Source: Panorpa germanica
Lineage: Eukaryota; Arthropoda; Insecta; Mecoptera; Panorpidae
Reading direction: 5' to 3'
Length of the DNA: 64,000 nt
Assembly: GCA_963678705.1 (NCBI GenBank)
Contig: OY783206.1
Span: forward strand, 16,069,807-16,133,806
The notes beneath the pieces were generated by a model that did no database searches, had not been told where the DNA came from, and worked only from the letters and a program-made list of their open reading frames with translations. Below, in pieces: positions 10,881-33,632 of the stretch; positions within the stretch are counted from its first letter, which is position 1; each line of letters begins with the position of its first letter. The position numbers and the translations under genes were made by a program.

Positions 10881-13250
10881 GTCCCAAGAGGAATAAAGTA
10901 CAGTGTTTTAAATATAAGCAGTATGAGCATGTGCAGAGACAGTACCCAAGTGCACCGTCAACAAAAGTGTGTGCGAGTACCGTGGATAATGCAGTACCTA
11001 ATCCATATATTTCTAAAATCAGATATTAATAAATAAAAAGGTTAATTGGTTAATTGACATGGGAAGTTCATGAACTTTAATAAAAAGAAACAATCGTTAA
11101 TATTTTGAAACTAAAGATATGTGAACATAATGTAATACGTGTTTTACATAGTTTAATGGCGCCACAGTATCTAGTAATAACATAACCAAAATACTGATCT
11201 ACGTAAGTGAAACTGAAGTGAAGGCTGAAGTTAATACAGTTGTGTTAGACGATAAGTGGATGATTTATGACTTAATAGTTGGATGTGACTTTTAAACAAA
11301 CCCTACATAACATTGAGCAGTAGTAACGGGCATGGGTGTGGTAATACGATCCATGAGACTAGTTAAAGAGCAGTGCATCAATATCAGTGACGTTGAGGCA
11401 GGTCATGGAATAAACATTTACAATATGACATTTGGGAACATTCACATAAAATATAAAGTTAAATGCGTTAATTTATTAAAGGAATGTATAAAAATGTGTT
11501 GCGCTTAGGCTGAGTGACATAAGAAAAACGCAGGCTGCAAAATTATAAATTAAATGTGTAACAGATGAACCGGTAACATGTTGACCGTATAGGCTACCTG
11601 TAGTAGAGAGAGAAGCAGTAAAGAATGATAAAAACAACAGATAATAATATTAAAAGACATTATATTCATCTTATGCAAGTACCGTGTGTATGTGTATATA
11701 GACCTTGGCAGATTAAATGCAATAATAATAACAATGATTTTAAAATAATAATAATAAACTGGGAAATAAAATATATTTTACGGAGCTCGGGCTAGTTTTG
11801 GACTTTTAACAAATACCAGTGAATGAAAATTTAATTGCAAAATAGTTTTGTCGTGCCTGATGGGCAATATGAACTTTTGGGTATGTCAATGGGAATTTAT
11901 ATTGCGCTGGTGTGTATCAAAGACTTGTAAATAGACTTGAATAAGATTTGTGTTTGTGCCATGAAAAGATACAATAGCTTTTCTATACATTGAAGTCATA
12001 ATATTTCCGTCTAAATCAGTACCTGAAGGTTTTGAGGGGTTAAAACAAGTGTTACGAGAAATGAATTAACACTATAATTGTTAAAGTGTTCATTTTTAAA
12101 ACGAAATTGACTATTTGGGACGTGAAATTAGTGCTGAGGGTGTGCGACCGAGGAAAGGAAAGATTGAAGCAGTGCAAAAATGTTAAAGCCGAAAACTGTA
12201 AACGGTGTAAAACAATTCTTAGGACTTGCTGGTTGTTTTCGTGAATTTGTGTATAAATGAGAGGTCTGGCAACTGACAGGGAAGTCATGTAAAGTGGAGT
12301 TGAGGGCGGACGTAACAAGAGGTGTTTAATACGTTAAGAACAGTATTGAGTGCAAGAGTATATATTGGGGGTGTTTGGTTCTGCACACGAGACAGAACTG
12401 CATACGGACGCTGGTTCAGTGGGGGTGGGAGCTGTGTTACTACAATTAATAGAAAGGGAGTGGAAGCTGGTTGCATGTTTGGCAGGAAAACAACAGCGGA
12501 TGTGTTGGAATTGGAATATTTACCATACAAGCCGCACTCCGATGTGATGAGTTTTGGCATGTTTTGTTGAGGTGGATGTTTGTGATGTTCCAATGGCGGT
12601 TTTCTTGCGATTGTTTTAAGAAGCTTGGAGTCATTGGTTGGGAATTGGGAAGGTGAACTACTTTTGATCGTTTGAGCAACGTTGTTGTGATTTCTACGAG
12701 TTAGGGACTGTGGCTGTAGAGTTGTCCTTGAAGCACTGTAGAGTGTATTTACTATGGTTGAAGTTTAATGTTGTGGCGGTTGTGAGAGGCGGGCTGTAGT
12801 GTCTTGAGGACGGCATTTGCAGAGAAGAATTTGATGCTGAGAACAGGGCCGTGGTGGCTGAAGATTTGGGATTTTGGTTTTGAGATTGATTTGAGTTGAG
12901 TTTGACAGAGGTTGACTGAATGTAGCGGCGGAACCAAGAGTTGAACAATTATTACAAACTTATACGTAGAATGTAAGGAGGGAGGAGTACGGTTGAAGTA
13001 AAATAGTATTTTACGGATTATGCGCTGAAAAATGGAGGAATTTTAAGGAAACTGGAAAATAGAGTTCAGCTATGGATTGTACCTAAAATTGTGCAATGGC
13101 AGATTGCAGATTATACCACGATGAAACAGATTATTTCAGTACTGAAAAAGCATTGCATAAAATACGCGAGAATTATTGGATTGCTGGTATAAACAGTTTA
13201 TTACAAAGTACGTAACAACATGGTTACAGTCCTACAGAACGATATTGTGC
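10881..13250 (+). pseudogene. Gypsy-C gag-pol remnants
   Basis: Scattered pieces in shifting frames: a zinc-knuckle relic at ~10907-10950 in which conserved Cys and Gly are replaced; a protease relic LIDMGSS at ~11046; RT pieces around 11854 (VPDGQYELLGMSMG) and 12123-12240 (VKQFLGLAGCFREF); an RNase H piece at ~12385-12450 (ELHTDAGSVGVGAVLLQ); and an integrase zinc-finger relic at ~13140 (ALHKIRENYWIAG). Order and strand fit a Ty3/gypsy pol. No piece is longer than ~40 residues without a break. Confidence 0.75.
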
Positions 13251-13857
13251 TATTCTTAAAATACGTAGACACGTAAGAATAAGCATCGTATCGGCAGTGA
13301 TCAGGGGATCATGTGTTTGAAATCAATTCAGGTTGTGTTATATGGAGATGTTTGTATGTCTAGCTACAATCATATATAACACAACGTATCACGGGAATTG
13401 ATTGTGAATTAGGCGTGGGCCGAAATTCATGAAGCTAATCCTTCGTGTTATATTGTAGACCTATGATGACGGTAAATGTCGGTCTCTGGACAGTATAGCA
13501 TGAGGTAGTGATTATGTCTAAAGGCGGAAACGCCGATATTCATAATTAAGAGGGATACAGGTCGGGATAGGGGTGGAGGACCTGTATTCATGTGATGTTG
13601 ACATGTTGTATTTTGGGTGGGCCATTTCTGGTGCCTATGTAAAATGGAACGTGAGTGTTGGTTATTTTTGAGTGAAGGCTTCTGCAGGGCCGGAAATTCA
13701 TAAAGTCCAATACGAAATTTTTAAACGACATGTGGATAATGAATAGTTGGACACAACTGCTCCATTATTTTACATGCGTCTGCATTTCTGTTTTCTATCG
13801 TTATTTTGTTATTACAGTAACCCAGGGCGAGGACGCCCTAACGTCAGGTTGGCCGAG
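13251..13857 (+). other. Gypsy-C 3' non-coding part
   Basis: No integrase core or env is recognisable. The stretch ends at the second LTR. Confidence 0.45.
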
Positions 13858-14203
13858 TGATACCACCAGTCTCGAGGAGACGCAGGATTTGTTGATGACT
13901 TAAGACAATAAACACGGAACACGTGCAATGATATCACCAGTCTCGAGGAGACACAGGATTTGTTGCTGACTTAAGACAATAAACATGCTAGGAATAATTA
14001 AGACTGACATGAAACATATGCGGGTGGGAACTGTGCTTGAACCTCGAGAGTGACTCGGGTTTGGCATTCTGACTTACGGCCTCTGACTGGAAGGGTTGAG
14101 CTGATTACATTTTTATAATACTACATATTTAATTTCGGATTTATTACTAATAAATATATTCTTGTTCAATTGATTGTAATGTTTTAATTAAACAACCCTA
14201 ACA
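13858..14203 (+). repeat. Gypsy-C 3' LTR
   Basis: Appears identical to 8543-8888 over all 346 bp. Confidence 0.95.
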
Positions 14204-14661: not shown

Positions 14662-14667
14662 GTCGTT
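14662..14667. repeat. Maverick TSD, left copy (gtcgtt)
   Basis: A 6-bp direct repeat with 31087-31092. The Gypsy-D copy of the same site (near 44100) has gtcgtt once and no insertion. Confidence 0.95.
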
Positions 14668-15064
14668 AGTAGATGAGGAGAGCGGGTTCTGGCTTAAATT
14701 TGAAATTGAGTTGGAAATTATTGGAGTGGGGATGCATTTAGGTCACGATATGCAGAGGGGGCGTGGCTAGACAATGTTGGGTAAAGTATTGTGGTGGGGA
14801 TGCATATAGGTCACGGTATGAAGAAGGGGGCGTGGCTAGACAATGTTGGGGGTAATAGTGGGGTAATATGAAAGAGTGAGAGTATGAAAGAGTAATAGTG
14901 GGGTAATATGAAAGAGTGAGATAGCGATAATAAGTATTACGTGTGTGTTAGTATTGGTGTTGAAGTTATGGCATTAATTATTGCATTCTTCGTCAATTTC
15001 CGGAAACCAATCGTTTATGTTCGTGTCCTAGATGTATCTGTACTATATACTCATATGGTTTATC
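14668..15064. repeat. Maverick left terminal segment
   Basis: 397 bp of unique terminus, inverted at 30690-31086 with only a handful of substitutions. It includes two direct copies of a ~70-bp segment with GGGGGCGTGGCTAGACAATG and a short AATATGAAAGAGTGAGA repeat. It is presumably the integrase recognition end. Confidence 0.9.
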
Positions 15065-16860
15065 ATTTAATTTCTAAAAAATAAAACTTTAAATATCTCG
15101 TAAACGGTTGAAGATATTGCATTTTTGATAAAAATTTTCTCCCCCAAAAGTACCAATACCCTAACAGGAGAACACGTTTAGAAGACGAAAGTAAAAAAAT
15201 TTTAGTCAAAATGGCGGATTTAATTTCTAAAAAATAAAACTTTAAATATCTCGTAAACGGTTGAAGATATTGCATTTTTGATAAAAAATTTATCCCCCAT
15301 CAGTACCAATACCCTAACAGGAGAACACGTTTAGAAGACGAAAGTAAAAAAATTTTAGTCAAAATGGCGGATTTAATTTCTAAAAAATAAAACTTTAAAT
15401 ATCTCGTAAACGGTTGAAGATATTGCATTTTTGATAAAAATTTTCTCCCCCAAAAGTACCAATACCCTAACAGGAGAACACGTTTAGAAGACGAAAGTAA
15501 AAAAATTTTAGTCAAAATGGCGCATTTAATTTCTGAATAAATAAAATTTAAATATCTCGTAAACGGTTGAAGATATTGCATTTTTGATAAAAATTTTCTC
15601 CCCCAAAAGTACCAATACCCTAACAGGAGAACACGTTTAGAAGACGAAAGTAAAAAAATTTTAGTCAAAATGGCGGATTTAATTTCTAAAAAATAAAACT
15701 TTAAATATCTCGTAAACGGTTGAAGATATTGCATTTTTGATAAAAAATTTATCCCCCATCAGTACCAATACCCTAACAGGAGAACACGTTTAGAAGACGA
15801 AAGTAAAAAAATTTTAGTCAAAATGGCGGATTTAATTTCTAAAAAATAAAACTTTATATATCTCGTAAACGGTTGAAGATATTGCATTTTTGATAAAAAT
15901 TTTCTCCCCCAAAAGTACCAATACCCTAACAGGAGAACACGTTTAAAAGACGAAAGTAAAAAAAATTTTAGCCAAAATGGCGGATTTAATTTTAAAATAA
16001 ATAAAATTTAAATATCTCGTAAACGGTTAAAGATATTGCATTTTTGATAAAAATTTTCTCCCCCATCAGTACCAATACCCTAACAGGAGAACACGTTTAG
16101 AAGACGAAAGTAAAAAAATTTTAGTCAAAATGGCGCATTTAATTTCTGAATAAATAAAATTTAAATATCTCGTAAACGGTTAAAGATATTGCATTTTTGA
16201 TAAAAATTTTCTCCCCCAAAAGTACCAATACCCTAACAGGAGAACACGTTTAAAAGACGAAAGTAAAAAAATTTTAGCCAAAATGGCGGATTTAATTTTA
16301 AAATAAATAAAATTTAAATATCTCGTAAACGGTTAAACATATTGCATTTTTGATAAAAATTTTCTCCCCCATCAGTACCAATACCCTAACAGGAGAACAC
16401 GTTTAGAAGACGAAAGTAAAAAAAATTTTAGTCAAAATGGCGGATTTAATTTCTAAAAAATAAAACTAATATCTCGTAAACGGTTGAAGATATTGCATTT
16501 TTGATAAAAATTTTCTCCCCCAAAAGTACCAATACCCTAACAGGAAAACACGATTAGAAGACGAAAATAAAAAAATTTTAGTCAAAATAGCGGATTTAAT
16601 TTCTAAAAAATAAAACTTTAAATATCTCGTAAACGGTTGAAGATATTGCATTTTTGATAAAAAAATTATCCCCCATCAGTACCAACACCCTAACAGGAGA
16701 ACACGTTTAGAAGACGAAAGTAAAAAAATTTAAGCCAAAATGGCGGATTTAATTTCTAAAAAATAAAACATTAAATATCTCGTAAACGGTTGAAGATATT
16801 GCATTTCTGATAAAAAATTTATCCCCCATCAGTACCAATACCCTAACAGGAGAACACGAT
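15065..16860. repeat. 153-bp subterminal tandem array, left (about 11.7 units)
   Basis: Units repeat every 153 bp (for example TAATTTCTAAAAAATAAAAC at 15068, 15221 and 15374). Each contains ATATCTCGTAAACGGTTGAA. Because 153 is a multiple of 3, some frames stay open across units and give repeated spurious ORFs. Confidence 0.95.
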
Positions 16861-16865
16861 TGGAT

Positions 16866-17039
16866 ATGACGGATGAAGAAATAATAATAGGTCACGAAGA
16901 AATTGAAATACAGGAAGAAGATTCTGATGTGGAAATCATAGAATTATTAGACGATGATAATGAAGTTATTGAAATATTAGACTCTGACGATGAAATTGTA
17001 GAAGTGTTAGACTCTGATGACGAAATTGTAAAAGTATAA
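16866..17039 (+). CDS. Acidic mini-protein with tandem SUMO-interacting-like motifs, left arm
   Basis: A 57-codon ORF that begins right after the repeat array and is followed by AATAAA at ~17074. The protein is strongly acidic and built from repeats of a hydrophobic core flanked by acidic and serine residues: VEIIELLDDD, VIEILDSDDE, IVEVLDSDDE, then a last IVKV. This is the pattern of SUMO-interacting motifs: three or four aliphatic residues next to Asp, Glu or Ser. Several in a row are known from proteins that bind SUMO chains. Its conservation in both arms and the absence of other long frames here support it as a gene. No homology to a named protein is recognised; the SUMO-binding role is inferred from motif only. 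A simple acidic repeat with no such role remains possible. Confidence 0.6.
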   Translation: MTDEEIIIGHEEIEIQEEDSDVEIIELLDDDNEVIEILDSDDEIVEVLDSDDEIVKV

Positions 17040-17352
17040 CATAGTGATTAATGTATATTTTTTATGTAAAATTATATAAATAAATGAACTTTTAAAAGCA
17101 ATTGTTATTTATATTTTGATTTTGAAACTGAAATATATAATTTAAAATGGATAACGGTTGTAAGATTATTAAGCATATGAGAACAATTATTGAACTGAAA
17201 AGTAATGCATTTAAGGTTGGGTTTTGAAATAAGTTTTAATTTTAATAAATATAGTATAGGGAGGGGATTAGAGTATATAATCTGTAGATATTTTATATTT
17301 TCTTCAGTTACAAATAAATATTTTAACAAGTTTAACTAAACATTTTTTAATA
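17040..17352. other. Intergenic, left arm
   Basis: AT-rich, with no supported gene. It contains a 3'-end signal for the preceding mini-ORF and presumably the promoter of the next gene. Confidence 0.5.
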
Positions 17353-18168
17353 ATGGCTTATCGTTACAAACCATATCCAATGTTTAATAAAAATAAAAAG
17401 TTAAGTTTTGATAGTGATGAATCCGATTCTAAAATAATATATGATGATTCTATATATTTATTAAAATCATTATATTATTTAAATAACAGTAAATCAAAAC
17501 AAGCATTAGTTGGAATTAAAGTAAATAATTTATGTGAAGCCATTTTGAAAATAGAAAAGGTTAATGGAAATGGCGTTATTATATCAGAGCAGGATTGGAA
17601 TACCCTGTTAAATAATAAAAACAACATTTCCAATTATTTTGAAGGAAGTGAATATTTAGATCAGTCTCACATAACCTTATCAAATTGCACAATACATTTT
17701 CAAACTTTCTATGAAAAGCCAACTATGGTTCTTGAAGAAAATATACAATGTCAACAGCAAGATTTGAATGAACAAAAACTTAAATCATCTTCTGTTTATT
17801 TACAGAAAGAATCTTGGGACAACTTGCTTAATATATCTCATTGTATAACAGTGACATTAAAAAATTATAATTTGTGTTCTAAATTAGTGGATAAATCTTT
17901 ATATCAAGTTCAAAATAATTTGTTTAATGTGTTAAAGGATACTCAAAGTATAAATTATAAAAATCACAATATTAATTTTTATGAGTGTTTTATTAAAAAT
18001 AATATAAATAACCATATTGATTTAAATAATAATTTTAGCCATGTATCATCAAAAATAAACTTGGAACTGTTGGAACAAGAAATAAAAATTTTGTGCATAG
18101 ACTTTTTTAAAATTAAATTATACAATAACGCTCAAGAATATATATATAACTTATCAAAAAATTATTAA
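17353..18168 (+). CDS. Unknown Maverick protein, 271 codons, left arm
   Basis: Starts MAYRYKPYPMFNK. The protein has a basic N-terminus and an acidic serine stretch (FDSDESDSK). It then has two similar modules, each with a pattern of beta-like segment, W, LLN and I: around residues 75-95 (ISEQDWNTLLNN) and 150-165 (LQKESWDNLLNIS). These W-LL modules faintly recall PC4-type single-strand DNA-binding folds, but I would not claim homology. The ORF ends in a run of A residues where a one-base slip would continue into another open frame (to 18392), so the original protein was probably longer. It lies between the acidic mini-ORF and the packaging ATPase, as expected for a conserved Maverick gene of unknown role. 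Confidence 0.7.
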   Translation: MAYRYKPYPMFNKNKKLSFDSDESDSKIIYDDSIYLLKSLYYLNNSKSKQALVGIKVNNLCEAILKIEKVNGNGVIISEQDWNTLLNNKNNISNYFEGSEYLDQSHITLSNCTIHFQTFYEKPTMVLEENIQCQQQDLNEQKLKSSSVYLQKESWDNLLNISHCITVTLKNYNLCSKLVDKSLYQVQNNLFNVLKDTQSINYKNHNINFYECFIKNNINNHIDLNNNFSHVSSKINLELLEQEIKILCIDFFKIKLYNNAQEYIYNLSKNY

Positions 18169-18392
18169 CTGAATCATTAAATGCAGATATTGAGATACAG
18201 AATATATCAGAAATGTTAACTTCTTTAAACAATGAGGAGGATTTTAAAAATTTTGAACCTATTAACACAAATTTGACTTCTACTAAATTAACAGCAGTTC
18301 CATTTTTATTTAATGAAGTACCTATATTATTAAAGGAAGATATGTATTCAATCAAAATAGGATTAAATTGTACTAAAATGATATATTATTAA
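18165..18392 (+). pseudogene. Frameshifted C-terminal piece of the 271-codon protein, left arm
   Basis: About 75 codons in the frame next to the preceding ORF, with coding-like composition (NISEMLTSLNNEEDFKNFEP, VPILLKEDMYSIKIG) and a stop at 18390-18392. The switch point is the A-run near 18155-18161. The same break exists in the right arm. Confidence 0.65.
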
Positions 18393-18505
18393 AAATGATA
18401 ATAATTTCAAACATGTCGTATATATTAGAAGAAATATCAAAACTATTGTAATTACTTAATTTATAATATATAAAAATTTAAAATGTATATAATTCTTTTA
18501 TTTAT

Positions 18506-18871
18506 TTATTTATTTATTAGGGTATAACTACATCCATTAGAATCATAATATAACATATAATTACAATCATAACAGTTTCTTATTTGACATGGAGGACCAT
18601 CTCTTTGTATGTTTCCTTTGTTATAATGTTTGTAACATAATCGACGTCCTTGTATATTTTGATTTTCTTTTAAATACATTGGAAGCCGGTTCCAGTTTTG
18701 TTCAATATCGGTAGAGAACATTATATAATGCAAGAAAAACTCTGTCGGTAAATAATGTAATTCTTCATCAGTAAGATTTTCTAGTAAACACTCATTTTCT
18801 TTATATTTTTTTAAAATAGCTCCAACTTTTGAAATCGTTTTCGAAACTTGTTCATGATCATTTAAACCCAT
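18506..18871 (-). CDS. Unknown Cys-containing Maverick protein, 121 codons, left arm
   Basis: Begins MGLNDHEQVSKTISK and is helical and charged for ~70 residues. It then has a Cys-rich C-terminal part (RRLCYKHYNKG, GPPCQIRNCYDCNYML) that could bind a metal ion. It is transcribed away from the ATPase with a 118-bp shared upstream region. Its end overlaps a TTTATTTATT run that supplies AATAAA on its own strand. It is 100% identical to the copy at 27189-27554. No family recognised. Confidence 0.7.
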   Translation of the reverse strand: MGLNDHEQVSKTISKVGAILKKYKENECLLENLTDEELHYLPTEFFLHYIMFSTDIEQNWNRLPMYLKENQNIQGRRLCYKHYNKGNIQRDGPPCQIRNCYDCNYMLYYDSNGCSYTLINK

Positions 18872-18989
18872 TACGTTTAATTTACGTTGAGTTTACTTTC
18901 AAATTACGTTCCCATATAATATTTTCATATATAAAGATTAAATATTTAAAACGTATTTTATTACTTTATAACACATGCCTGGTTAAACA
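18872..18989. promoter_or_regulatory. Divergent intergenic region with TTACGTT motifs, left arm
   Basis: 118 bp between two divergent genes with three or four spaced copies of TTACGTT or related (TTACGTTTAATTTACGTTGAG, AATTACGTTCCCATATAAT). The same words are amplified near the palindrome centre (22403-22740). Likely contains both promoters; binding factor unknown. Confidence 0.5.
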
Positions 18990-19691
18990 ATGAAGTTTAT
19001 AAAGCAAAAAGAAACTCTTTCTGTAAAAAATATTGATAATCAAAGTAATAATTACACTAATAATTCAAAACATGGATCACTATTACCAAATGACATTAGA
19101 TGCATTATTTGTGGACCTTCAAACTGTGGAAAAACTAATGTTATGTTTAATCTAATTGAACATCCAAATGGGTTGCGATTTAAAAATATATACATTTATT
19201 CAAAATCTTTATATCAACCAAAATATAAAATATTACAACAAATTATGAAGAATATTAATGGTATGGGATACTATACATACACTGACAATGAAGAGATTAT
19301 TAGACCTGAAGATGCTAGCCCAAATTCTATATTCATATTTGATGATGTTGCTTGCGATAAACAAAATAATATTCGAAATTTTTTTAGCATGGGCCGTCAT
19401 AATTTGATAGACTCTTTCTATTTATGTCAGACTTACAGCAAAATTCCAAAGCAATTAATACGGGATAATACTAATTTTATTATATTATTCAAGCAAGATG
19501 ACTTAAATTTAAAGCATATATATGATGATCATGTTAACTTTGACTTTCCAAGTTTTCTAGAGTTTAAACAAGTTTGTAATTTATGTTGGGATTCAAATAA
19601 ATATTCCTTTATGGTAATAGATAAAAATAGTGACTTAAATAACGGGCGATACAGAAAAGGATTTGATATGTTTTTAGATATAACCAAGTAA
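18990..19691 (+). CDS. Maverick packaging ATPase (A32/FtsK-HerA type), left arm
   Basis: 233 codons, close to the usual length of Maverick and virophage packaging ATPases. Walker A is GPSNCGKTN (residues ~43-51) and Walker B is SIFIFDDVAC (~112-121), followed by a sensor-like FYLCQTYSKIPKQLIRDNTN segment. These enzymes pump double-stranded DNA into capsids. It is intact and 100% identical in protein to the right-arm copy, unlike the neighbouring polymerase. The polymerase fragment starts only 17 nt downstream. An intact packaging motor without any capsid gene on the element suggests packaging in trans or a very recent loss of selection. Confidence 0.9.
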   Translation: MKFIKQKETLSVKNIDNQSNNYTNNSKHGSLLPNDIRCIICGPSNCGKTNVMFNLIEHPNGLRFKNIYIYSKSLYQPKYKILQQIMKNINGMGYYTYTDNEEIIRPEDASPNSIFIFDDVACDKQNNIRNFFSMGRHNLIDSFYLCQTYSKIPKQLIRDNTNFIILFKQDDLNLKHIYDDHVNFDFPSFLEFKQVCNLCWDSNKYSFMVIDKNSDLNNGRYRKGFDMFLDITK

Positions 19692-19708
19692 TCTTTACAA
19701 TAATATTT

Positions 19709-20614
19709 GTGATATATGGAGATTTTGAAACATTATTAAAACCCATTAGTACTTGTTATCCTGAAACTAATACATCATTTTCAAATAATATTCAAATTCA
19801 TGAACCATATTCATTTGCTTATTATATTAAATGTTCCTTTAATGATTCCTTAAGTAAGTTTGTTACGTACAGAGGTATTAATTGCGTTAAAGTATTTATT
19901 GAAACAATAACTGAAGACGCTAAACAAATTTATAAAGTCTTAAATAAAGTGAAGCCTTTAAATAAATTATCTGATTGGCAAAAACAGGAATATGATGAAG
20001 CTTCTATTTACCATATTTGTGAAGGTATCCTCAATGGTGATAAAGTGTTAGATCATTGTCACTTAACTGGTAATTACCGAGGAGCTGCTCATAATCATTG
20101 CAATTTAAAATTTACAATTCCAAAGTTTATACCTGTCATATTCCATAACTTAAGTAATTACGATAGCCATATAATTGTAAAAGAATTAGGTAATGATAGT
20201 GAAAAAATTGAAGTTATTCCAGAAAATAAGGAAAAGTATATATCTTTTACGAAACATATTTTGGTGGAATCAAAAGTCGATAAAAATGATAAAGTTCATA
20301 ACTGCTATATTAAACTTAGATTTATTGATTCTTTACGATTTATGCATTCTAGTTTAGAAACACTTGCAAAAAATTTATTATCAGAACAATTTTTCGAATT
20401 AAAAAAATTCTATCCGAATGAAAATCATTTTAATTTATTAAAACGTAAAGGTGTATTTCCTTATGAATATGTAAATAGTAGGGATATGCTTAATGAATCT
20501 GACTTGCCATCTCAAAATAATTTTTATAGCTCACTTAATGGCTGTAATATATCTGACGATGATTACAATCATGCCAAAATGGTTTGGTATGCATTTGAAA
20601 TGAAAACATTGTGA
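19709..20614 (+). pseudogene. Maverick DNA polymerase B, exonuclease part, left arm
   Basis: 301 codons with no real start codon: the frame opens two codons before the ExoI motif YGDFETLL, so the polymerase N-terminus is deleted and joined to the end of the ATPase gene. Further on are an HNH-like zinc segment (DHCHLTGNYRGAAHNHCN, ~residue 110) typical of protein-primed polymerases of Mavericks, adintoviruses and bidnaviruses, and ExoII (FHNLSNYDSHI). A stop at 20612-20614 comes from a 112-bp tandem repeat. The enzyme would copy the element from its ends. Broken in the same way in both arms. Confidence 0.85.
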
Positions 20615-20837
20615 CTTGCCATCTCAAAATAATTTTTATAGCTCACTTAATGGCTGTAATATATCTGACGATGATTACAATCATGCCAAAATGGTTTGGT
20701 ATGCATTTGAAATGAAAACATTGTGACTTGCCATCTCAAAATAATTTTTATAGCTCACTTAATGACTGTAATATATCTGACGATGATTACAATCATGCCA
20801 AAATGGTTTGGTATGCATTTGAAATGAAAACATTGGG
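20501..20837 (+). repeat. 112-bp tandem triplication inside polymerase gene, left arm
   Basis: Three copies starting GACTTGCCATCTCAAAATAA at 20501, 20613 and 20725. 112 is not a multiple of 3, so each extra copy shifts the frame and creates stops. The right arm has the same three copies. Confidence 0.95.
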
Positions 20838-21755
20838 GAATATTCAGACTTATATTTAAAGATCGATGTTCTGTTGTTAACAGATATTTTTGAAAATTTT
20901 CGAGATGTGTGCTATAAAACATATAATTTAGATCCCTGTCAATATTATACAGCACCAGGACTTTCTTGGGATGCTATGTTAAAGTATACAAGTATTGAAT
21001 TAGAACTTTTAACAGATATTGATATGTTACATTTTATTAAAAAAGGTATAAGAGGTGGAATATCACAATGCTCTCACAGACATGGAATTGCAAATAATAA
21101 ATATATGTCCAATTATGATTCAAATAAAGATTCTCAATATTTAATGTATTGGGATGCAAATAACTTATATGGTTGGGCTATGAGTCAATATTTACCACAT
21201 GAGGGATTTAAATGGTTAGATACATATAAATTACAAACATTTAATGTAGAAGCTATTGAAGGTAACTCAGATGTTGGTTATATATTAGAAGTCGATTTAA
21301 GATATCCTAATTATTTGCACGATGAACACAATGATCTACCTTTCTGTGCTGAAAATATTAAACCACCTTGCATTAAAACAAATGACGTTAAATTAATACC
21401 AAATCTAAATAACAAGTATAATTATGTGCTTCACTATAGATCGTTAAAGCAATGTCTTAAAAATAATCTGAAAATAGATAAAATTCATAGAATTTTGGAA
21501 TTTAAACAGTCTGATTGGTTAAAAAGTTATATTGATCTAAATACATTAAAAAGAAAGAACTCTGCAAATACATTTGAGAAAGACTTTTTTAAATTAATGA
21601 ATAATTCAGTTTATGGGAAAACAATGGAGAATGTAGATAAACGTGTCGATGTAAAGTTAATAACTCATTGGGATAATATAGGACATAAAATGGGTGCTAA
21701 TACACTTATAAGTAAACCAAACTATCATAGTTGTTCTATATTTCATGAAACTTAG
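20838..21755 (+). pseudogene. Maverick DNA polymerase B, palm and TPR region, left arm
   Basis: An open frame after the triplication. It shows the third exonuclease region ([17 protein letters not shown]), the [11 protein letters not shown] segment, palm motif A as [13 protein letters not shown] and motif B as [15 protein letters not shown]. It ends at a stop at 21753-21755 caused by a single missing base; the following frame resumes within a few codons. Motif A keeps the usual Leu here; the right arm has Ser. Confidence 0.88.
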
Positions 21756-21766
21756 TTGCTATTCAA

Positions 21767-22402
21767 ATGCAAAAACTTAAAGTTTTTTATAATAAACCAT
21801 TGTATTTAGGATTAAATGTACTTGATATATCAAAAACTTTAATATACGATTTTCATTATGATTTCATCAAAAAAGTCTATAAAGGTAATGCTAAATTGTT
21901 GTATACAGATACAGATTCATTAATATATCAAATTAAAACAGATGATATATATGACGATATTAAGTGTAATCTAGATAAATTTGATACATCTAATTATCCA
22001 TTTAATAATGAATTTTCATTACCTTTAATGAACAAAGCTAAATTAGGCTTAATGAAAGATGAATGCGCGGGTAGTATAATTTGGGAGTTTGTTAGGTTAA
22101 GGTCAAAAATGTATGCAATTGATATTGAGGGTTCATGCACAGCTAAAGCAAAAGGAATTAAGAAAAATATTGTAAACAAATTCAATATTAAAGATTATGT
22201 AAATTGTTTATCTCAGGATAACATATTATTGATCACAATGAATACCTTTAAATCGATTAAGCATACAATTTATACTCAAATGATAAGTAAAGTAGGTCTT
22301 AGTGGAAATGATAATAAAAGATATGTATTAACTGATGGTGATATTGAGGGTTCATGCACAGCTAAAGCAAAAGGAATTAAGAAAAATATTGTAAACAAAT
22401 TC
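21767..22402 (+). pseudogene. Maverick DNA polymerase B, C-terminal part, left arm
   Basis: Contains palm motif C as LLYTDTDSLIYQI (residues ~44-56) and a thumb region. A 62-bp segment (22121-22183) is repeated at 22342-22402 and replaces the normal C-terminus. After it the frame runs into the TTACGTT-type array and stops at 22432. The polymerase is therefore broken at the N-terminus, twice in the middle, and at the C-terminus. Confidence 0.85.
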
Positions 22403-23657
22403 GAACGTTACTTGAACATAATGGGAACGTAACTTGAACGTAATTCAACGTAACTTGAACGTAATGGAAACGTAACTTGAACGTGTTTTAATACATCCAT
22501 ATAAAATAAGATACACATATTTTATTAGTAATGTTTTGTTATATATAATTCTTATATGATTAACACTGGTCATAAGAGCTCTAATATATATGCATAGACA
22601 TATTAATGTATGAGTATGCGTACATAAACTGGATGACAATTGTATACGTTATATGCGAACGTAACTTGAACGTAATGGGAACGTAACTTCAACGTAACTT
22701 GAACGTAATGGGAACGTAACTGAACGTTACGTTGAATTACGTGTTTTACGCTATTTTGAACATTCTCCATATAAAATTGACTGAGAATCAGAAAATATTT
22801 TTAAAAAAATCGCTGTTACTTGTGAAATCTTATAGCTACAAAAAAAAAACAATGTACTAGACATGTGCGAATACCTCCTCCTTACATAGATTTAGGCCTA
22901 TAGTTCACATTGCTATTGAAGCGTATTCGAGTTATGAGCAAAAATCCAAAAAAAAATTTGAAGAAAATCCCATAACATTTACAGTTTTTATCACAGAATG
23001 TTCAAAATAGCGTTAAAACGCATTATTTTTTCTCAATTCGTCGTTTTAACACTATTTCAACTTTCTGTGATAAAAACTGTAAGAGTTATGGGATTTTCAT
23101 CAAATTTTTTTTGGATTTTTGCTCATAACTCGAATACACTTCAATAGCAATGTGAACTATAGGCCTAAATCTATGTAAGGAGGTGGTATTCGCACATGTC
23201 TAGTACATTGTTTTTTTTTTGTAGCTATAAGATTTCACAAGTAACAGCGATTTTTTTAAAAATATTTTCTGATTCTCAGTCAATTTTATATGGAGAATGT
23301 TCAAAATAGCGTAAAACACGTAATTCAACGTAACGTTCAGTTACGTTCCCATTACGTTCAAGTTACGTTGAAGTTACGTTCCCATTACGTTCAAGTTACG
23401 TTCGCATATAACGTATACAATTGTCATCCAGTTTATGTACGCATACTCATACATTAATATGTCTATGCATATATATTAGAGCTCTTATGACCAGTGTTAA
23501 TCATATAAGAATTATATATAACAAAACATTACTAATAAAATATGTGTATCTTATTTTATATGGATGTATTAAAACACGTTCAAGTTACGTTTCCATTACG
23601 TTCAAGTTACGTTGAATTACGTTCAAGTTACGTTCCCATTATGTTCAAGTTACGTTC
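22403..23657. repeat. Palindrome centre with TTACGTT-type arrays and loop
   Basis: Non-coding and self-complementary around ~23030. From outside in, each side has: clustered AACGTAACTTGAACGTAATG words (22403-22490), a ~150-bp spacer, more such words (22655-22740), a GCTATTTTGAACATTCT segment, a ~230-bp spacer with a long A run, and that same segment again in inverse orientation. A 21-nt unpaired loop lies at 23021-23041. Close to the loop the arms differ at several bases, unlike the nearly identical outer parts. Confidence 0.85.
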
Positions 23658-24293
23658 GAATTTGTTTACAATATTTTTCTTAATTCCTTTTGCTTTAGCT
23701 GTGCATGAACCCTCAATATCACCATCAGTTAATACATATCTTTTATTATCATTTCCACTAAGACCTACTTTACTTATCATTTGAGTATAAATTGTATGCT
23801 TAATCGATTTAAAGGTATTCATTGTGATCAATAATATGTTATCCTGAGATAAACAATTTACATAATCTTTAATATTGAATTTGTTTACAATATTTTTCTT
23901 AATTCCTTTTGCTTTAGCTGTGCATGAACCCTCAATATCAATTGCATACATTTTTGACCTTAACCTAACAAACTCCCAAATTATACTACCCGCGCATTCA
24001 TCTTTCATTAAGCCTAATTTAGCTTTGTTCATTAAAGGTAATGAAAATTCATTATTAAATGGATAATTAGATGTATCAAATTTATCTAGATTACACTTAA
24101 TATCGTCATATATATCATCTGTTTTAATTTGATATATTAATGAATCTGTATCTGTATACAACAATTTAGCATTACCTTTATAGACTTTTTTGATGAAATC
24201 ATAATGAAAATCGTATATTAAAGTTTTTGATATATCAAGTACACTTAATCCTAAATACAATGGTTTATTATAAAAAACTTTAAGTTTTTGCAT
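23658..24293 (-). pseudogene. Maverick DNA polymerase B, C-terminal part, right arm
   Basis: Mirror of 21767-22402. Motif C is present. Two amino-acid differences from the left arm: LYLGLS instead of LYLGLN, and FERN instead of FERY just past the duplicated segment. Same 62-bp duplication and loss of the true C-terminus. Confidence 0.85.
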
Positions 24294-24304
24294 TTGAATA
24301 GCAA

Positions 24305-25222
24305 CTAAGTTTCATGAAATATAGAACAACTATGATAGTTTGGTTTACTTATAAGTGTATTAGCACCCATTTTATGTCCTATATTATCCCAATGAGTTAT
24401 TAACTTTACATCGACACGTTTATCTACATTCTCCATTGTTTTCCCATAAACTGAATTATTCATTAATTTAAAAAAGTCTTTCTCAAATGTATTTGCAGAG
24501 TTCTTTCTTTTTAATGTATTTAGATCAATATAACTTTTTAACCAATCAGACTGTTTAAATTCCAAAATTCTATGAATTTTATCTATTTTCAGATTATTTT
24601 TAAGACATTGCTTTAACGATCTATAGTGAAGCACATAATTATACTTGTTATTTAGATTTGGTATTAATTTAACGTCATTTGTTTTAATGCAAGGTGGTTT
24701 AATATTTTCAGCACAGAAAGGTAGATCATTGTGTTCATCGTGCAAATAATTAGGATATCTTAAATCGACTTCTAATATATAACCAACATCTGAGTTACCT
24801 TCAATAGCTTCTACATTAAATGTTTGTAATTTATATGTATCTAACCATTTAAATCCCTCATGTGGTAAATATTGACTCATAGCCCAACCATATGAGTTAT
24901 TTGCATCCCAATACATTAAATATTGAGAATCTTTATTTGAATCATAATTGGACATATATTTATTATTTGCAATTCCATGTCTGTGAGAGCATTGTGATAT
25001 TCCACCTCTTATACCTTTTTTAATAAAATGTAACATATCAATATCTGTTAAAAGTTCTAATTCAATACTTGTATACTTTAACATAGCATCCCAAGAAAGT
25101 CCTGGTGCTGTATAATATTGACAGGGATCTAAATTATATGTTTTATAGCACACATCTCGAAAATTTTCAAAAATATCTGTTAACAACAGAACATCGATCT
25201 TTAAATATAAGTCTGAATATTC
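24305..25222 (-). pseudogene. Maverick DNA polymerase B, palm region, right arm
   Basis: Mirror of 20838-21755 with the same one-base lesion at its end. Palm motif A reads [10 protein letters not shown], a Leu-to-Ser change next to the catalytic Asp region that is absent on the left. Motif B is unchanged. Confidence 0.87.
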
Positions 25223-25559
25223 CCCAATGTTTTCATTTCAAATGCATACCAAACCATTTTGGCATGATTGTAATCATCGTCAGATATATTACAGTCATTA
25301 AGTGAGCTATAAAAATTATTTTGAGATGGCAAGTCACAATGTTTTCATTTCAAATGCATACCAAACCATTTTGGCATGATTGTAATCATCGTCAGATATA
25401 TTACAGCCATTAAGTGAGCTATAAAAATTATTTTGAGATGGCAAGTCACAATGTTTTCATTTCAAATGCATACCAAACCATTTTGGCATGATTGTAATCA
25501 TCGTCAGATATATTACAGCCATTAAGTGAGCTATAAAAATTATTTTGAGATGGCAAGTC
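25223..25559 (-). repeat. 112-bp tandem triplication, right arm
   Basis: Mirror of 20501-20837. Copy number and phase are identical. Confidence 0.95.
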
Positions 25560-26351
25560 AGATTCATTAAGCATATCCCTACTATTTACATATTCATAAG
25601 GAAATACACCTTTACGTTTTAATAAATTAAAATGATTTTCATTCGGATAGAATTTTTTTAATTCGAAAAATTGTTCTGATAATAAATTTTTTGCAAGTGT
25701 TTCTAAACTAGAATGCATAAATCGTAAAGAATCAATAAATCTAAGTTTAATATAGCAGTTATGAACTTTATCATTTTTATCGACTTTTGATTCCACCAAA
25801 ATATGTTTCGTAAAAGATATATACTTTTCCTTATTTTCTGGAATAACTTCAATTTTTTCACTATCATTACCTAATTCTTTTACAATTATATGGCTATCGT
25901 AATTACTTAAGTTATGGAATATGACAGGTATAAACTTTGGAATTGTAAATTTTAAATTGCAATGATTATGAGCAGCTCCTCGGTAATTACCAGTTAAGTG
26001 ACAATGATCTAACACTTTATCACCATTGAGGATACCTTCACAAATATGGTAAATAGAAGCTTCATCATATTCCTGTTTTTGCCAATCAGATAATTTATTT
26101 AAAGGCTTCACTTTATTTAAGACTTTATAAATTTGTTTAGCGTCTTCAGTTATTGTTTCAATAAATACTTTAACGCAATTAATACCTCTGTACGTAACAA
26201 ACTTACTTAAGGAATCATTAAAGGAACATTTAATATAATAAGCAAAAGAATATGGTTCATGAATTTGAATATTATTTGAGAATGATGTATTAGTTTCAGG
26301 ATAACAAGTACTAATGGGTTTTAATAATGTTTCAAAATCTCCATATATCAC
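25446..26351 (-). pseudogene. Maverick DNA polymerase B, exonuclease part, right arm
   Basis: Mirror of 19709-20614 with identical 301-residue translation, the same missing N-terminus and the same stop. Confidence 0.85.
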
Positions 26352-26368
26352 AAATATTATTGTAAAGA

Positions 26369-27070
26369 TTACTTGGTTATATCTAAAAACATATCAAATC
26401 CTTTTCTGTATCGCCCGTTATTTAAGTCACTATTTTTATCTATTACCATAAAGGAATATTTATTTGAATCCCAACATAAATTACAAACTTGTTTAAACTC
26501 TAGAAAACTTGGAAAGTCAAAGTTAACATGATCATCATATATATGCTTTAAATTTAAGTCATCTTGCTTGAATAATATAATAAAATTAGTATTATCCCGT
26601 ATTAATTGCTTTGGAATTTTGCTGTAAGTCTGACATAAATAGAAAGAGTCTATCAAATTATGACGGCCCATGCTAAAAAAATTTCGAATATTATTTTGTT
26701 TATCGCAAGCAACATCATCAAATATGAATATAGAATTTGGGCTAGCATCTTCAGGTCTAATAATCTCTTCATTGTCAGTGTATGTATAGTATCCCATACC
26801 ATTAATATTCTTCATAATTTGTTGTAATATTTTATATTTTGGTTGATATAAAGATTTTGAATAAATGTATATATTTTTAAATCGCAACCCATTTGGATGT
26901 TCAATTAGATTAAACATAACATTAGTTTTTCCACAGTTTGAAGGTCCACAAATAATGCATCTAATGTCATTTGGTAATAGTGATCCATGTTTTGAATTAT
27001 TAGTGTAATTATTACTTTGATTATCAATATTTTTTACAGAAAGAGTTTCTTTTTGCTTTATAAACTTCAT
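26369..27070 (-). CDS. Maverick packaging ATPase, right arm
   Basis: Mirror of 18990-19691 with identical 233-residue translation. Walker A GPSNCGKTN and Walker B IFIFDDV are intact. It gives the element two intact copies of the packaging motor. Confidence 0.9.
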   Translation of the reverse strand: MKFIKQKETLSVKNIDNQSNNYTNNSKHGSLLPNDIRCIICGPSNCGKTNVMFNLIEHPNGLRFKNIYIYSKSLYQPKYKILQQIMKNINGMGYYTYTDNEEIIRPEDASPNSIFIFDDVACDKQNNIRNFFSMGRHNLIDSFYLCQTYSKIPKQLIRDNTNFIILFKQDDLNLKHIYDDHVNFDFPSFLEFKQVCNLCWDSNKYSFMVIDKNSDLNNGRYRKGFDMFLDITK

Positions 27071-27188
27071 TGTTTAACCAGGCATGTGTTATAAAGTAAT
27101 AAAATACGTTTTAAATATTTAATCTTTATATATGAAAATATTATATGGGAACGTAATTTGAAAGTAAACTCAACGTAAATTAAACGTA
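27071..27188. promoter_or_regulatory. Divergent intergenic region with TTACGTT motifs, right arm
   Basis: Mirror of 18872-18989. Confidence 0.5.
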
Positions 27189-27554
27189 ATGGGTTTAAAT
27201 GATCATGAACAAGTTTCGAAAACGATTTCAAAAGTTGGAGCTATTTTAAAAAAATATAAAGAAAATGAGTGTTTACTAGAAAATCTTACTGATGAAGAAT
27301 TACATTATTTACCGACAGAGTTTTTCTTGCATTATATAATGTTCTCTACCGATATTGAACAAAACTGGAACCGGCTTCCAATGTATTTAAAAGAAAATCA
27401 AAATATACAAGGACGTCGATTATGTTACAAACATTATAACAAAGGAAACATACAAAGAGATGGTCCTCCATGTCAAATAAGAAACTGTTATGATTGTAAT
27501 TATATGTTATATTATGATTCTAATGGATGTAGTTATACCCTAATAAATAAATAA
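27189..27554 (+). CDS. Unknown Cys-containing Maverick protein, right arm
   Basis: Mirror of 18506-18871 with identical 121-residue translation, and the same AATAAATAAATAAA run at its 3' end. Confidence 0.7.
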   Translation: MGLNDHEQVSKTISKVGAILKKYKENECLLENLTDEELHYLPTEFFLHYIMFSTDIEQNWNRLPMYLKENQNIQGRRLCYKHYNKGNIQRDGPPCQIRNCYDCNYMLYYDSNGCSYTLINK

Positions 27555-27667
27555 ATAAATAAAAGAATTATATACATTTTAAATTTTTATATATTATAAA
27601 TTAAGTAATTACAATAGTTTTGATATTTCTTCTAATATATACGACATGTTTGAAATTATTATCATTT

Positions 27668-27895
27668 TTAATAATATATCATTTTAGTACAATTTAATCC
27701 TATTTTGATTGAATACATATCTTCCTTTAATAATATAGGTACTTCATTAAATAAAAATGGAACTGCTGTTAATTTAGTAGAAGTCAAATTTGTGTTAATA
27801 GGTTCAAAATTTTTAAAATCCTCCTCATTGTTTAAAGAAGTTAACATTTCTGATATATTCTGTATCTCAATATCTGCATTTAATGATTCAGTTAA
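27668..27895 (-). pseudogene. Frameshifted C-terminal piece of the 271-codon protein, right arm
   Basis: Mirror of 18165-18392, with the same slip at the A-run. Confidence 0.65.
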
Positions 27896-28707
27896 TAATT
27901 TTTTGATAAGTTATATATATATTCTTGAGCGTTATTGTATAATTTAATTTTAAAAAAGTCTATGCACAAAATTTTTATTTCTTGTTCCAACAGTTCCAAG
28001 TTTATTTTTGATGATATATGGCTAAAATTATTATTTAAATCAATATGGTTATTTATATTATTTTTAATAAAACACTCATAAAAATTAATATTGTGATTTT
28101 TATAATTTATACTTTGAGTATCCTTTAACACATTAAACAAATTATTTTGAACTTGATATAAAGATTTATCCACTAATTTAGAACACAAATTATAATTTTT
28201 TAATGTCACTGTTATACAATGAGATATATTAAGCAAGTTGTCCCAAGATTCTTTCTGTAAATAAACAGAAGATGATTTAAGTTTTTGTTCATTCAAATCT
28301 TGCTGTTGACATTGTATATTTTCTTCAAGAACCATAGTTGGCTTTTCATAGAAAGTTTGAAAATGTATTGTGCAATTTGATAAGGTTATGTGAGACTGAT
28401 CTAAATATTCACTTCCTTCAAAATAATTGGAAATGTTGTTTTTATTATTTAACAGGGTATTCCAATCCTGCTCTGATATAATAACGCCATTTCCATTAAC
28501 CTTTTCTATTTTCAAAATGGCTTCACATAAATTATTTACTTTAATTCCAACTAATGCTTGTTTTGATTTACTGTTATTTAAATAATATAATGATTTTAAT
28601 AAATATATAGAATCATCATATATTATTTTAGAATCGGATTCATCACTATCAAAACTTAACTTTTTATTTTTATTAAACATTGGATATGGTTTGTAACGAT
28701 AAGCCAT
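27892..28707 (-). CDS. Unknown Maverick protein, 271 codons, right arm
   Basis: Mirror of 17353-18168. One amino-acid difference from the left copy (FSHI instead of FSHV). Same two W-LL modules and same frameshifted end. Confidence 0.7.
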   Translation of the reverse strand: MAYRYKPYPMFNKNKKLSFDSDESDSKIIYDDSIYLLKSLYYLNNSKSKQALVGIKVNNLCEAILKIEKVNGNGVIISEQDWNTLLNNKNNISNYFEGSEYLDQSHITLSNCTIHFQTFYEKPTMVLEENIQCQQQDLNEQKLKSSSVYLQKESWDNLLNISHCITVTLKNYNLCSKLVDKSLYQVQNNLFNVLKDTQSINYKNHNINFYECFIKNNINNHIDLNNNFSHISSKINLELLEQEIKILCIDFFKIKLYNNAQEYIYNLSKNY

Positions 28708-29020
28708 TATTAAAAAATGTTTAGTTAAACTTGTTAAAATATTTATTTGTAACTGAAGAAAATATAAAATATCTACAGATTATATACTCTAATCCCCTCC
28801 CTATACTATATTTATTAAAATTAAAACTTATTTCAAAACCCAACCTTAAATGCATTACTTTTCAGTTCAATAATTGTTCTCATATGCTTAATAATCTTAC
28901 AACCGTTATCCATTTTAAATTATATATTTCAGTTTCAAAATCAAAATATAAATAACAATTGCTTTTAAAAGTTCATTTATTTATATAATTTTACATAAAA
29001 AATATACATTAATCACTATG
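28708..29020. other. Intergenic, right arm
   Basis: Mirror of 17040-17352; no supported gene. Confidence 0.5.
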
Positions 29021-29194
29021 TTATACTTTTACAATTTCGTCATCAGAGTCTAACACTTCTACAATTTCATCGTCAGAGTCTAATATTTCAATAACTTCAT
29101 TATCATCGTCTAATAATTCTATGATTTCCACATCAGAATCTTCTTCCTGTATTTCAATTTCTTCGTGACCTATTATTATTTCTTCATCCGTCAT
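29021..29194 (-). CDS. Acidic mini-protein with tandem SUMO-interacting-like motifs, right arm
   Basis: Mirror of 16866-17039 with the same 57 codons: the same ATG, the same VIEILDSDDE / IVEVLDSDDE repeats and the same stop. Confidence 0.6.
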   Translation of the reverse strand: MTDEEIIIGHEEIEIQEEDSDVEIIELLDDDNEVIEILDSDDEIVEVLDSDDEIVKV

Positions 29195-29199
29195 ATCCA

Positions 29200-30689
29200 A
29201 TCGTGTTCTCCTGTTAGGGTATTGGTACTGATGGGGGATAAATTTTTTATCAGAAATGCAATATCTTCAACCGTTTACGAGATATTTAATGTTTTATTTT
29301 TTAGAAATTAAATCCGCCATTTTGGCTTAAATTTTTTTACTTTCGTCTTCTAAACGTGTTCTCCTGTTAGGGTGCTGGTACTGATGGGGGATAAATTTTT
29401 TATCAAAAATGCAATATCTTCAACCGTTTACGAGATATTTAAAGTTTTATTTTTTAGAAATTAAATCCGCTATTTTGACTAAAATTTTTTTATTTTCGTC
29501 TTCTAATCGTGTTCTCCTGTTAGGGTATTGGTACTTTTGGGGGAGAAAATTTTTATCAAAAATGCAATATCTTCAACCGTTTACGAGATATTTAAAGTTT
29601 TATTTTTTAGAAATTAAATCCGCCATTTTGACTAAAATTTTTTTTACTTTCTTCTAAACGTGTTCTCCTGTTAGGGTATTGGTACTGATGGGGGAGAAAA
29701 TTTTTATCAAAAATGCAATATCTTTAACCGTTTACGAGATATTTAAATTTTATTTATTTTAAAATTAAATCCGCCATTTTGGCTAAAATTTTTTTACTTT
29801 CGTCTTTTAAACGTGTTCTCCTGTTAGGGTATTGGTACTTTTGGGGGAGAAAATTTTTATCAAAAATGCAATATCTTTAACCGTTTACGAGATATTTAAA
29901 TTTTATTTATTCAGAAATTAAATGCGCCATTTTGACTAAAATTTTTTTACTTTCGTCTTCTAAACGTGTTCTCCTGTTAGGGTATTGGTACTGATGGGGG
30001 AGAAAATTTTTATCAAAAATGCAATATCTTTAACCGTTTACGAGATATTTAAATTTTATTTATTTTAAAATTAAATCCGCCATTTTGGCTAAAATTTTTT
30101 TTACTTTCGTCTTTTAAACGTGTTCTCCTGTTAGGGTATTGGTACTTTTGGGGGAGAAAATTTTTATCAAAAATGCAATATCTTTAACCGTTTACGAGAT
30201 ATTTAAATTTTATTTATTCAGAAATTAAATGCGCCATTTTGACTAAAATTTTTTTACTTTCGTCTTCTAAACGTGTTCTCCTGTTAGGGTATTGGTACTT
30301 TTGGGGGAGAAAATTTTTATCAAAAATGCAATATCTTCAACCGTTTACGAGATATTTAAAGTTTTATTTTTTAGAAATTAAATGCGCCATTTTGACTAAA
30401 ATTTTTTTACTTTCGTCATCTAAACGTGTTCTCCTGTTAGGGTATTGGTACTGATGGGGGATAAATTTTTTATCAAAAATGCAATATCTTCAACCGTTTA
30501 CGAGATATTTAAAGTTTTATTTTTTAGAAATTAAATCCGCCATTTTGACTAAAATTTTTTTACTTTCGTCTTCTAAACGTGTTCTCCTGTTAGGGTATTG
30601 GTACTTTTGGGGGAGAAAATTTTTATCAAGAATGCAATATCTTCAACCGTTTACGAGATATTTAAAGTTTTATTTTTTAGAAATTAAAT
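29200..30689. repeat. 153-bp subterminal tandem array, right (about 9.7 units)
   Basis: Inverted relative to 15065-16860 and 306 bp shorter, which is exactly two units. Confidence 0.95.
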
Positions 30690-31086
30690 GATAAACCATA
30701 TGAGTATATAGTACAGATACATCTAGGACACGAACATAAACGATTGGTTTCCGGAAATTGACGAAGAATGCAATAATTACGGCCATAACTTCAACACCAA
30801 TACTAACACACACGTAATACTTATTATCGCTATCTCACTCTTTCATATTACCCCACTATTACTCTTTCATACTCTCACTCTTTCATATTACCTCACTATT
30901 ACCCCCAACATTGTCTAGCTACGCCCCCTTTTTCATACCGTGACCTATATGCATCCCCACCACAATACTTTACCCAACATTGTCTAGCCACGCCCCCTCT
31001 GCATATCGTGACCTAAATGCATCCCCACTCCAATAATTTCCAACTCAATTTCAAATTTAAGCCAGAACCCGCTCTCCTCATCTACT
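30690..31086. repeat. Maverick right terminal segment
   Basis: Inverse of 14668-15064 with about five substitutions (for example the GGGGGCGTGGC word reads GGGGGCGTAGC in the second copy here). Confidence 0.9.
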
Positions 31087-31092
31087 GTCGTT
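31087..31092. repeat. Maverick TSD, right copy (gtcgtt)
   Basis: Matches 14662-14667. Confidence 0.95.
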
Positions 31093-33008: not shown

Positions 33009-33609
33009 GTGTGGGGGTGACAATAAGCCTATCCTTGTTGATGTTTCCAATTGTGGGTCTACCTTACACCTTAGTGGGTGTTAGCTAGATTACCAGCTGT
33101 GGTTTAGCTGTTTTGATCTTATTTGAATCCTTAGTTGAGCCCCCATTACAATTTAGCTTATTAAAAATAAAGTTCAATTAATTATTTTTCAAAGAAATTA
33201 TATTACAAAAATAACTCACATATATAAAAATAGTTCACAATAATATTATTCAACAACAAATATTACAACTAGTAATATTGTTAATCGTATTCTAATTCTT
33301 AATGTTATTAACAACTAGTTAATACTACATTTCCCGAATTTACTAATGACTGCCATACAAACTGTGTATGTACCTACTATCGCCATTTTAACAATCTTCT
33401 CTGTTGACCATGCAACATCGCATGTCGTAGCAAGCGACGTGTGTCGTGACCTGTTAGTGGGGTCCACAAATCGTTTCAAAAACAGAGCTAGTAACATTTG
33501 AATATAACTTAATATTAGCAATGTTCCTAACCTATTTTATAGAGTTCTTTACTATATAATTACTACTTCTTACAAACTAATTATATCTAATCCTAAATTA
33601 TATCCCACA
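33009..33609 (-). repeat. Gypsy-A 5' LTR
   Basis: 601 bp, TGTGGG...CCCACA; partner of 1809-2408. Confidence 0.93.
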
Positions 33610-33632
33610 TATATATATATATATATATATAT
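33610..33632. repeat. (TA)n run between Gypsy-A and R1-like LINE
   Basis: The pre-insertion TA tract, which continues the run at 1749-1808. Confidence 0.85.

Follow-up and report, generated by a model that had tools for sequence, protein, structure and literature searches.

A near-perfect 16-kb palindrome in a Maverick/Polinton derivative of Panorpa germanica with stepped divergence between its arms

A 64,000-nucleotide stretch of the Panorpa germanica genome (contig OY783206.1, positions 16,069,807 to 16,133,806; hereafter the window) contains a near-perfect palindrome of 16,419 bp. The palindrome occupies positions 14668-31086, exactly as a first-pass annotation had placed it, and is a Maverick/Polinton derivative that interrupts a Gypsy element, here called Gypsy-A. 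It is far beyond chance and sits within a proper insertion. Divergence between the two arms is stepped, with separate histories for the central hairpin, the core, and the outer ends. We give about even chances to an ordinary Maverick insertion in which one half was later replaced by the mirror of the other through hairpin fold-back. The evidence is one locus in one assembly, with 21 substitutions between the arms outside the centre, and all ages are relative only.

Architecture and insertion site

The element starts with AGTAGATGAGG and ends with CCTCATCTACT, and its termini read AGTAGA...TCTACT. The left arm (14668-23020) and the right arm (23042-31086) can be aligned over their full length and are separated by a loop of 21 nt. 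DNA folding of the central 181 nt gives a predicted energy of -61.5 kcal/mol, compared with -15.3 +/- 2.7 for shuffled sequences (0 of 200 as good). From the end to the centre, each arm is composed of a 397-bp terminal sequence, a 153-bp tandem array, ORF1 (open reading frame 1), an A32-type ATPase, and PolB in three frames (19667-22429 in the left arm). The terminal sequence and the array together make up the terminal inverted repeat (TIR).

The 6-bp target site duplication (TSD) GTCGTT is found on both sides. A paralogous Gypsy copy in the window carries the same site uninterrupted. The left flank of the element aligns to window position 44106 (100 bp, 89%) and the right flank aligns from 44101 (400 bp, 94%), and the two alignments overlap by exactly the 6-bp TSD. 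The left flank stretch is repeated within the paralogous copy and gives three overlapping matches. The palindrome is placed inside a proper insertion because of the duplication on both sides and this overlap at the uninterrupted site. The host Gypsy-A has long terminal repeats (LTRs) that are 98.17% identical, with 11 mismatches in 601 bp.

The structural features are as follows.

1809-2409, minus strand: Gypsy-A LTR, 601 bp (strand inferred from the gag ORF)
14662-14667, no strand: left TSD copy, GTCGTT, 6 bp
14668-15064, plus strand: terminal sequence of the left TIR, starting AGTAGA, with 5 of 397 sites unlike the right end
15065-16864, plus strand: 153-bp tandem array of the left TIR, 11.7 units; the divergence change-point, 16686, lies inside
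22948-23020, plus strand: left half of the imperfect central hairpin, proposed fold-back primer site; 6 substitutions and 2 indels relative to the right half
23021-23041, no strand: loop, 21 nt
23042-23112, minus strand: right half of the imperfect central hairpin
29196-30689, minus strand: 153-bp tandem array of the right TIR, 9.7 units, 306 bp shorter than the left
30690-31086, minus strand: terminal sequence of the right TIR, finishing in TCTACT
31087-31092, no strand: right TSD copy, GTCGTT
33010-33610, minus strand: other Gypsy-A LTR
43895-44500, minus strand: paralogous Gypsy copy with the target site uninterrupted (site 44101-44106)

The first-pass annotation had described a 6-bp TSD, AG...CT ends, inverted arms with a 21-nt loop, and an intact target site in another Gypsy copy. 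All of these are borne out, and its statement that both ends were retained agrees with the two intact ends and TSD.

Between the end of PolB and the central hairpin (22398-22736) are two blocks of short 11/22-bp repeats (GAACGTAACTT), which are mirrored in the other arm. The central hairpin and the array were also considered as repeats present elsewhere in the window. This was rejected, as the matches were short and weak (best E 0.007).

Stepped divergence between the arms

The arms differ by 5 substitutions in the 397-bp terminal part, by 8 substitutions in 1491 aligned bp of the 153-bp array, and by 8 substitutions in 6091 bp of the core. The array additionally has one 306-bp and two 3-bp indels. 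The innermost ~70 bp carry 6 substitutions and 2 indels, a difference of ~9-11%.

When the 21 substitutions that lie outside the centre were split without supervision, the change-point fell at 16686, inside the 153-bp array. There are 13 substitutions in 1712 bp outside this point and 8 in 6261 bp inside it, making the outer ~1.7 kb about sixfold more diverged. Random placements did as well in 17 of 5000 permutations, or in 53 of 10000 when the adjacent pair 14973/14974 was counted once. When the array was left out, the counts were 36 of 10000 and, with the adjacent pair counted once, 298 of 10000. Fisher tests gave p = 0.0007 for the terminal 397 bp versus the core (0.005 with the adjacent pair counted once; 0.026 with the five differences counted as three) and p = 0.0002 for the ends plus the array versus the core.

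The LTRs of Gypsy-A provide a reference within the same locus. The terminal 397 bp (5/397) and the LTRs (11/601) are alike (p = 0.6), whereas the core and the LTRs differ (p = 1e-7). By substitutions only, the centre is more diverged than the core (p = 5e-9) and more diverged than the LTRs (p = 0.005). The imperfect central hairpin is therefore older than the palindrome. Either the core was copied recently or conversion has kept its two versions similar. The divergence of the outer ends matches that of the host Gypsy's LTRs, so the ends appear to be of the same age as the Gypsy and resemble the TIR pair of an ordinary Maverick insertion. The two inverted arms seen in the first pass are real, though they are not uniform copies of each other: divergence changes in steps along them, and an older imperfect inverted repeat forms the innermost ~70 bp.

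The terminal differences at 14823 and 14834 were considered as products of conversion between two 68-bp copies. This was rejected by eye, as the right-arm variants are unlike copy 1.

Genes carried by the arms

The genes are compared here with those of the IMG/VR contig IMGVR_UViG_3300028392_002905 (L001), which encodes, at 5129-12511, an A32 ATPase, a 1286-residue Maverick-type PolB, and a convergent rve integrase. L001 is a Polinton-like element. The genes and their mirror copies are as follows.

17281-18165, plus strand: ORF1, 295 residues, no homologue found
18987-19688, plus strand: packaging ATPase (Pox_A32, 1.2e-8)
19667-20611, plus strand: PolB piece a, matching residues 438-756 of L001 PolB (DNA_pol_B_2, 2.3e-7)
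20500-20835, plus strand: tandem duplication of 3 x 112 bp, found in both arms (mirror 25225-25560), that puts PolB out of frame
20823-21752, plus strand: PolB piece b, matching residues 754-1052 of L001 PolB
21749-22429, plus strand: PolB piece c, matching residues 1075-1275 of the 1286-residue L001 PolB
23628-27073, minus strand: mirror copies of the PolB pieces and the ATPase, mirrored frames without a stop
27895-28779, minus strand: mirror copy of ORF1

PolB pieces a to c are collinear with residues 438-1275 of L001 PolB, and no counterpart of its first ~437 residues was found in the arm. The last residues of piece c derive from a 64-bp duplication. Among the 120 homologues listed of 7997, identity to piece b reaches 65%, and those that are named are mostly from insects, with others from scorpion, spider, and coral. 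The TSD, the AGT-type ends, PolB, and the Pox_A32 ATPase support the assignment of the first-pass annotation to Maverick/Polinton.

The lesions in PolB are identical in both arms. Since they are shared, they either predate the mirror copy or reached both arms by conversion. In the right arm, where ORFs were checked for stops only, the five mirrored frames contain none. Four of the six arm differences that fall inside mirrored frames of the core alter an amino acid, which is compatible with an absence of selection on the proteins.

ORF1 returned nothing in the homologue search and no Pfam match up to E = 5. Its sole PHROGs match is weak (0.0057), to a family whose function is not known. A single-sequence fold had a mean pLDDT (predicted local distance difference test) of 30.8 and was not used.

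The proposed missing half and the relative L001

The first-pass annotation had the integrase come from elsewhere. Within the element Pfam detected none: all 26 left-arm ORFs with 55 residues or more lacked an rve match, with E-value cut-offs up to 0.1 in one run and 0.01 in two others. The same library does detect rve in L001, which makes this negative informative. A 27th ORF is a Gypsy frame that enters from the left, and it contains only Integrase_H2C2, which belongs to the Gypsy. No cysteine protease or jelly-roll capsid was matched by Pfam in the 26 ORFs, a weak negative because none was matched in the 9 of 9 scanned ORFs of L001 either. As no rve integrase was detected, the element is a non-autonomous derivative and not a full Maverick.

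L001 was found by a search of viral contigs with an alignment of the PolB query and 17 of the 120 listed homologues (7997 scored). This search matched 542 stretches, of which one, L001, was confirmed. A search with a single PolB piece confirmed none, and a search for relatives using exact patterns of the 153-bp array and the central hairpin gave 0 matches. The L001 integrase (11588-12511) is convergent to PolB (7742-11602) and overlaps its 3' end. The ATPase of L001 has a different arrangement. No inverted repeat of at least 40 bp was present in the examined part of L001. Tblastn of L001 proteins against the arm matched only at PolB and missed the ATPase, and is thus an insensitive test.

Vertebrate Mavericks have two modules directed to the centre, one of PolB, ATPase, and PZ and the other of integrase, capsid proteins, PW, and protease (PMC8097293). 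The fold point of the palindrome is 0.5-0.6 kb past the 3' end of PolB. Because the L001 integrase overlaps the PolB 3' end and the vertebrate modules converge on the centre, the fold would lie about where the integrase side should begin. By analogy with these relatives, the insect element would once have possessed an integrase/capsid half.

Origin of the palindrome

We consider fold-back after insertion the best explanation. An ordinary Maverick/Polinton with TIRs of ~2.2 kb would have inserted into the Gypsy, creating the 6-bp TSD. Much later, a DNA break would have occurred in the right half, which by analogy with relatives was the integrase/capsid half. A 3' strand would then have folded back on the imperfect ~70-bp hairpin, 0.5-0.6 kb beyond the PolB end, and primed synthesis that proceeded outward through the entire left module (PolB, ATPase, ORF1). 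On reaching the 153-bp array, the copy would have met the homologous array still present in the original right TIR and could have recombined there. The outcome would be a right half that mirrors the left, with the original ends, TSD, and nearly normal length retained. What we infer here is that there was an original right half, that it broke, that the hairpin primed the copy, and that recombination ended the copying, in that order.

The stepped divergence, together with end divergence like that of the Gypsy LTRs, is what one would see if the conversion followed integration and left the original right TIR in place. A hairpin older than the palindrome is as expected for a fold-back primer, and the position of the fold just past the 3' end of PolB also counts in favour. 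The change-point falls inside the 153-bp array, which would be a candidate second junction in repeated homology (permutation fractions 0.3-3%). There are precedents in yeast. Fold-back inversions arise there via single-stranded DNA hairpins, and a second, homology-mediated rearrangement resolves most of them (PMC7467729). Fill-in that depends on Pol-delta and secondary events mediated by repeats have also been reported (PMC10622511). Single-stranded DNA tolerates divergent inverted repeats, with suppression only beyond 25% heterology (PMC10164571), and the ~9-11% difference of the hairpin is below this limit.

Several points weigh against fold-back after insertion. The step is carried by only 21 substitutions, the weakest tests are at ~3%, and the case is a single locus in one assembly of one strain. 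Gene conversion from arm to arm could be the cause of the low core divergence, and the array differences could come partly from unequal exchange. The implied TIR of 2.2 kb exceeds the 46-1,447 bp given for intact vertebrate Mavericks (PMC8097293). In the same yeast sources (PMC7467729, PMC10622511, PMC10164571), the events come mostly from repair mutants and gave altered chromosomes, dicentric or translocated, not a change within one transposon. In duplex DNA, inverted repeats are less unstable when their spacer is widened from 12 to 20 bp (PMC10164571), and the loop here is 21 nt. Given the mutant background, the chromosome outcomes, and the spacer effect, the yeast precedents cover steps of the process and not the whole.

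The second explanation is a snapback. Fold-back would have taken place outside the chromosome while the element replicated by protein priming, and an integrase acting in trans would have inserted the completed palindrome in one piece. This is close to the proposal of the first-pass annotation. Its idea of a fold-back of one half is kept in our preferred explanation, whereas integration as a complete palindrome is not supported, the outer ~1.7 kb being about sixfold more diverged and the outermost part as diverged as the Gypsy LTRs. We regard the snapback as possible and disfavour it. The ends and TSD are intact, no integrase was detected in the element by Pfam, and 16,419 bp is within the range of intact vertebrate Mavericks (16,862 +/- 1,678 bp; PMC8097293). 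An analogue is provided by 15-kb adenovirus vectors, which are packaged as direct and inverted dimers (PMC4189039). The normal length fits a central fold position or a packaging limit alike. A snapback predicts equal divergence along the arms, yet the outer ~1.7 kb are about six times above the rest. To account for this, the core would have to have undergone gene conversion as well, or the two ends would have to have been unlike before they integrated. A bolder form, in which the palindromic Maverick, with its normal length and two ends for replication and packaging, is a mobile snapback parasite that is replicated, packaged, and integrated by helper Mavericks, a polintovirus defective-interfering genome fixed in a chromosome, appears a little less probable still.

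The palindrome could also be an assembly artefact, a normal long-TIR Maverick whose right half was rendered as the mirror of its left, which we think improbable. A near-perfect 16-kb palindrome with a tandem array at both ends is hard to assemble. Against this, the flanks are two different adjacent parts of one Gypsy, with the TSD, and the fold is located on a diverged hairpin. The arms also carry scattered differences outside the centre: 21 substituted sites, two array units, and two 3-bp indels. Two inverted Mavericks, or one with inherent ~8-kb TIRs as the normal form of its family, would accord with the variable TIR length of Mavericks (46-1,447 bp in intact vertebrate elements, PMC8097293) and are very improbable. 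Against both, there is no unique middle apart from the 21-nt loop, Pfam detected no integrase, the same lesions break PolB in both arms, and the whole lies between one pair of TSD copies.

If fold-back after insertion holds, the locus records the steps of a fold-back inversion in the insect germ line: a priming hairpin, a copied arm, and a likely exit by recombination. These steps would lie within a single insertion whose age can be compared with that of its host element. The locus would also show how half of the genes of a virus-like transposon can be lost while its length, ends, and TSD are retained. Whether polintoviruses have defective-interfering genomes, as adenoviruses and linear plasmids do, is a question the locus leaves directly testable.

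Neighbourhood of the insertion

Two further apparent LTR elements are nested in Gypsy-A (2847-8170 and 8543-14203), each bounded by long direct repeats. The element at 2847-8170 has DUF1758, DUF5641, and rve domains, and its terminal repeats have 0 mismatches and one gap. We take it to be BEL/Pao-like. The direct repeats flanking 8543-14203 are 346 bp and 100% identical.

Another apparent LTR element is located at 46886-54074, with 294-bp direct repeats (46886-47179 and 53781-54074) that are 100% identical. It contains a Baculo_F-type envelope ORF of 578 residues (52023-53759) and a 562-residue ORF without a Pfam match, and between these two no ORF exceeds 149 residues. It looks like a recent errantivirus-like insertion that bears env and is poor in pol.

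A beta-octopamine receptor-like exon (59074-59913) adjoins the transposon cluster. Its identity is 65-82% to matches from several insect orders, among the 120 listed of 1208.

Comparison with known systems

Judged by titles and the beginnings of abstracts, no paper found in the literature searches deals with a palindromic Maverick/Polinton. The element resembles Mavericks/Polintons in its 6-bp TSD, TIRs, A32-type ATPase, normal overall length, and Maverick-type PolB, which from its sequence is predicted to be protein-primed. Its AGTAGA ends match 5 of the 6 letters of the (AGT)2//(ACT)2 motif (PMC8097293). It is unlike them in having no integrase, protease, or capsid gene by Pfam (the capsid and protease test being weak), a frame-broken PolB with no counterpart found of the first ~437 residues of L001 PolB, and one half that mirrors the other.

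The inverted repeats are long and internally repetitive, as in Galileo/Foldback elements (PMC3573991). Galileo is classed with the P-element, whereas the repeats here bear Maverick genes.

Yeast fold-back inversions (PMC7467729, PMC10622511, PMC10164571) share a short inverted repeat at the junction that can form a hairpin, and would also share an arm copied outward and a second junction in repeated homology. The present case differs from them in being limited to a single transposon: it seems to stop in that element's TIR array, and the flanks stay where they were.

Palindromic derivatives of protein-primed linear DNA with two functional ends are known from the yeast linear plasmid pGKL1. The inverted dimers of helper-dependent adenovirus vectors (PMC4189039) are likewise palindromic derivatives of a protein-primed linear DNA and have two functional ends. 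Both are extrachromosomal, whereas the Panorpa palindrome is chromosomal, and its evidence leans to an origin after integration.

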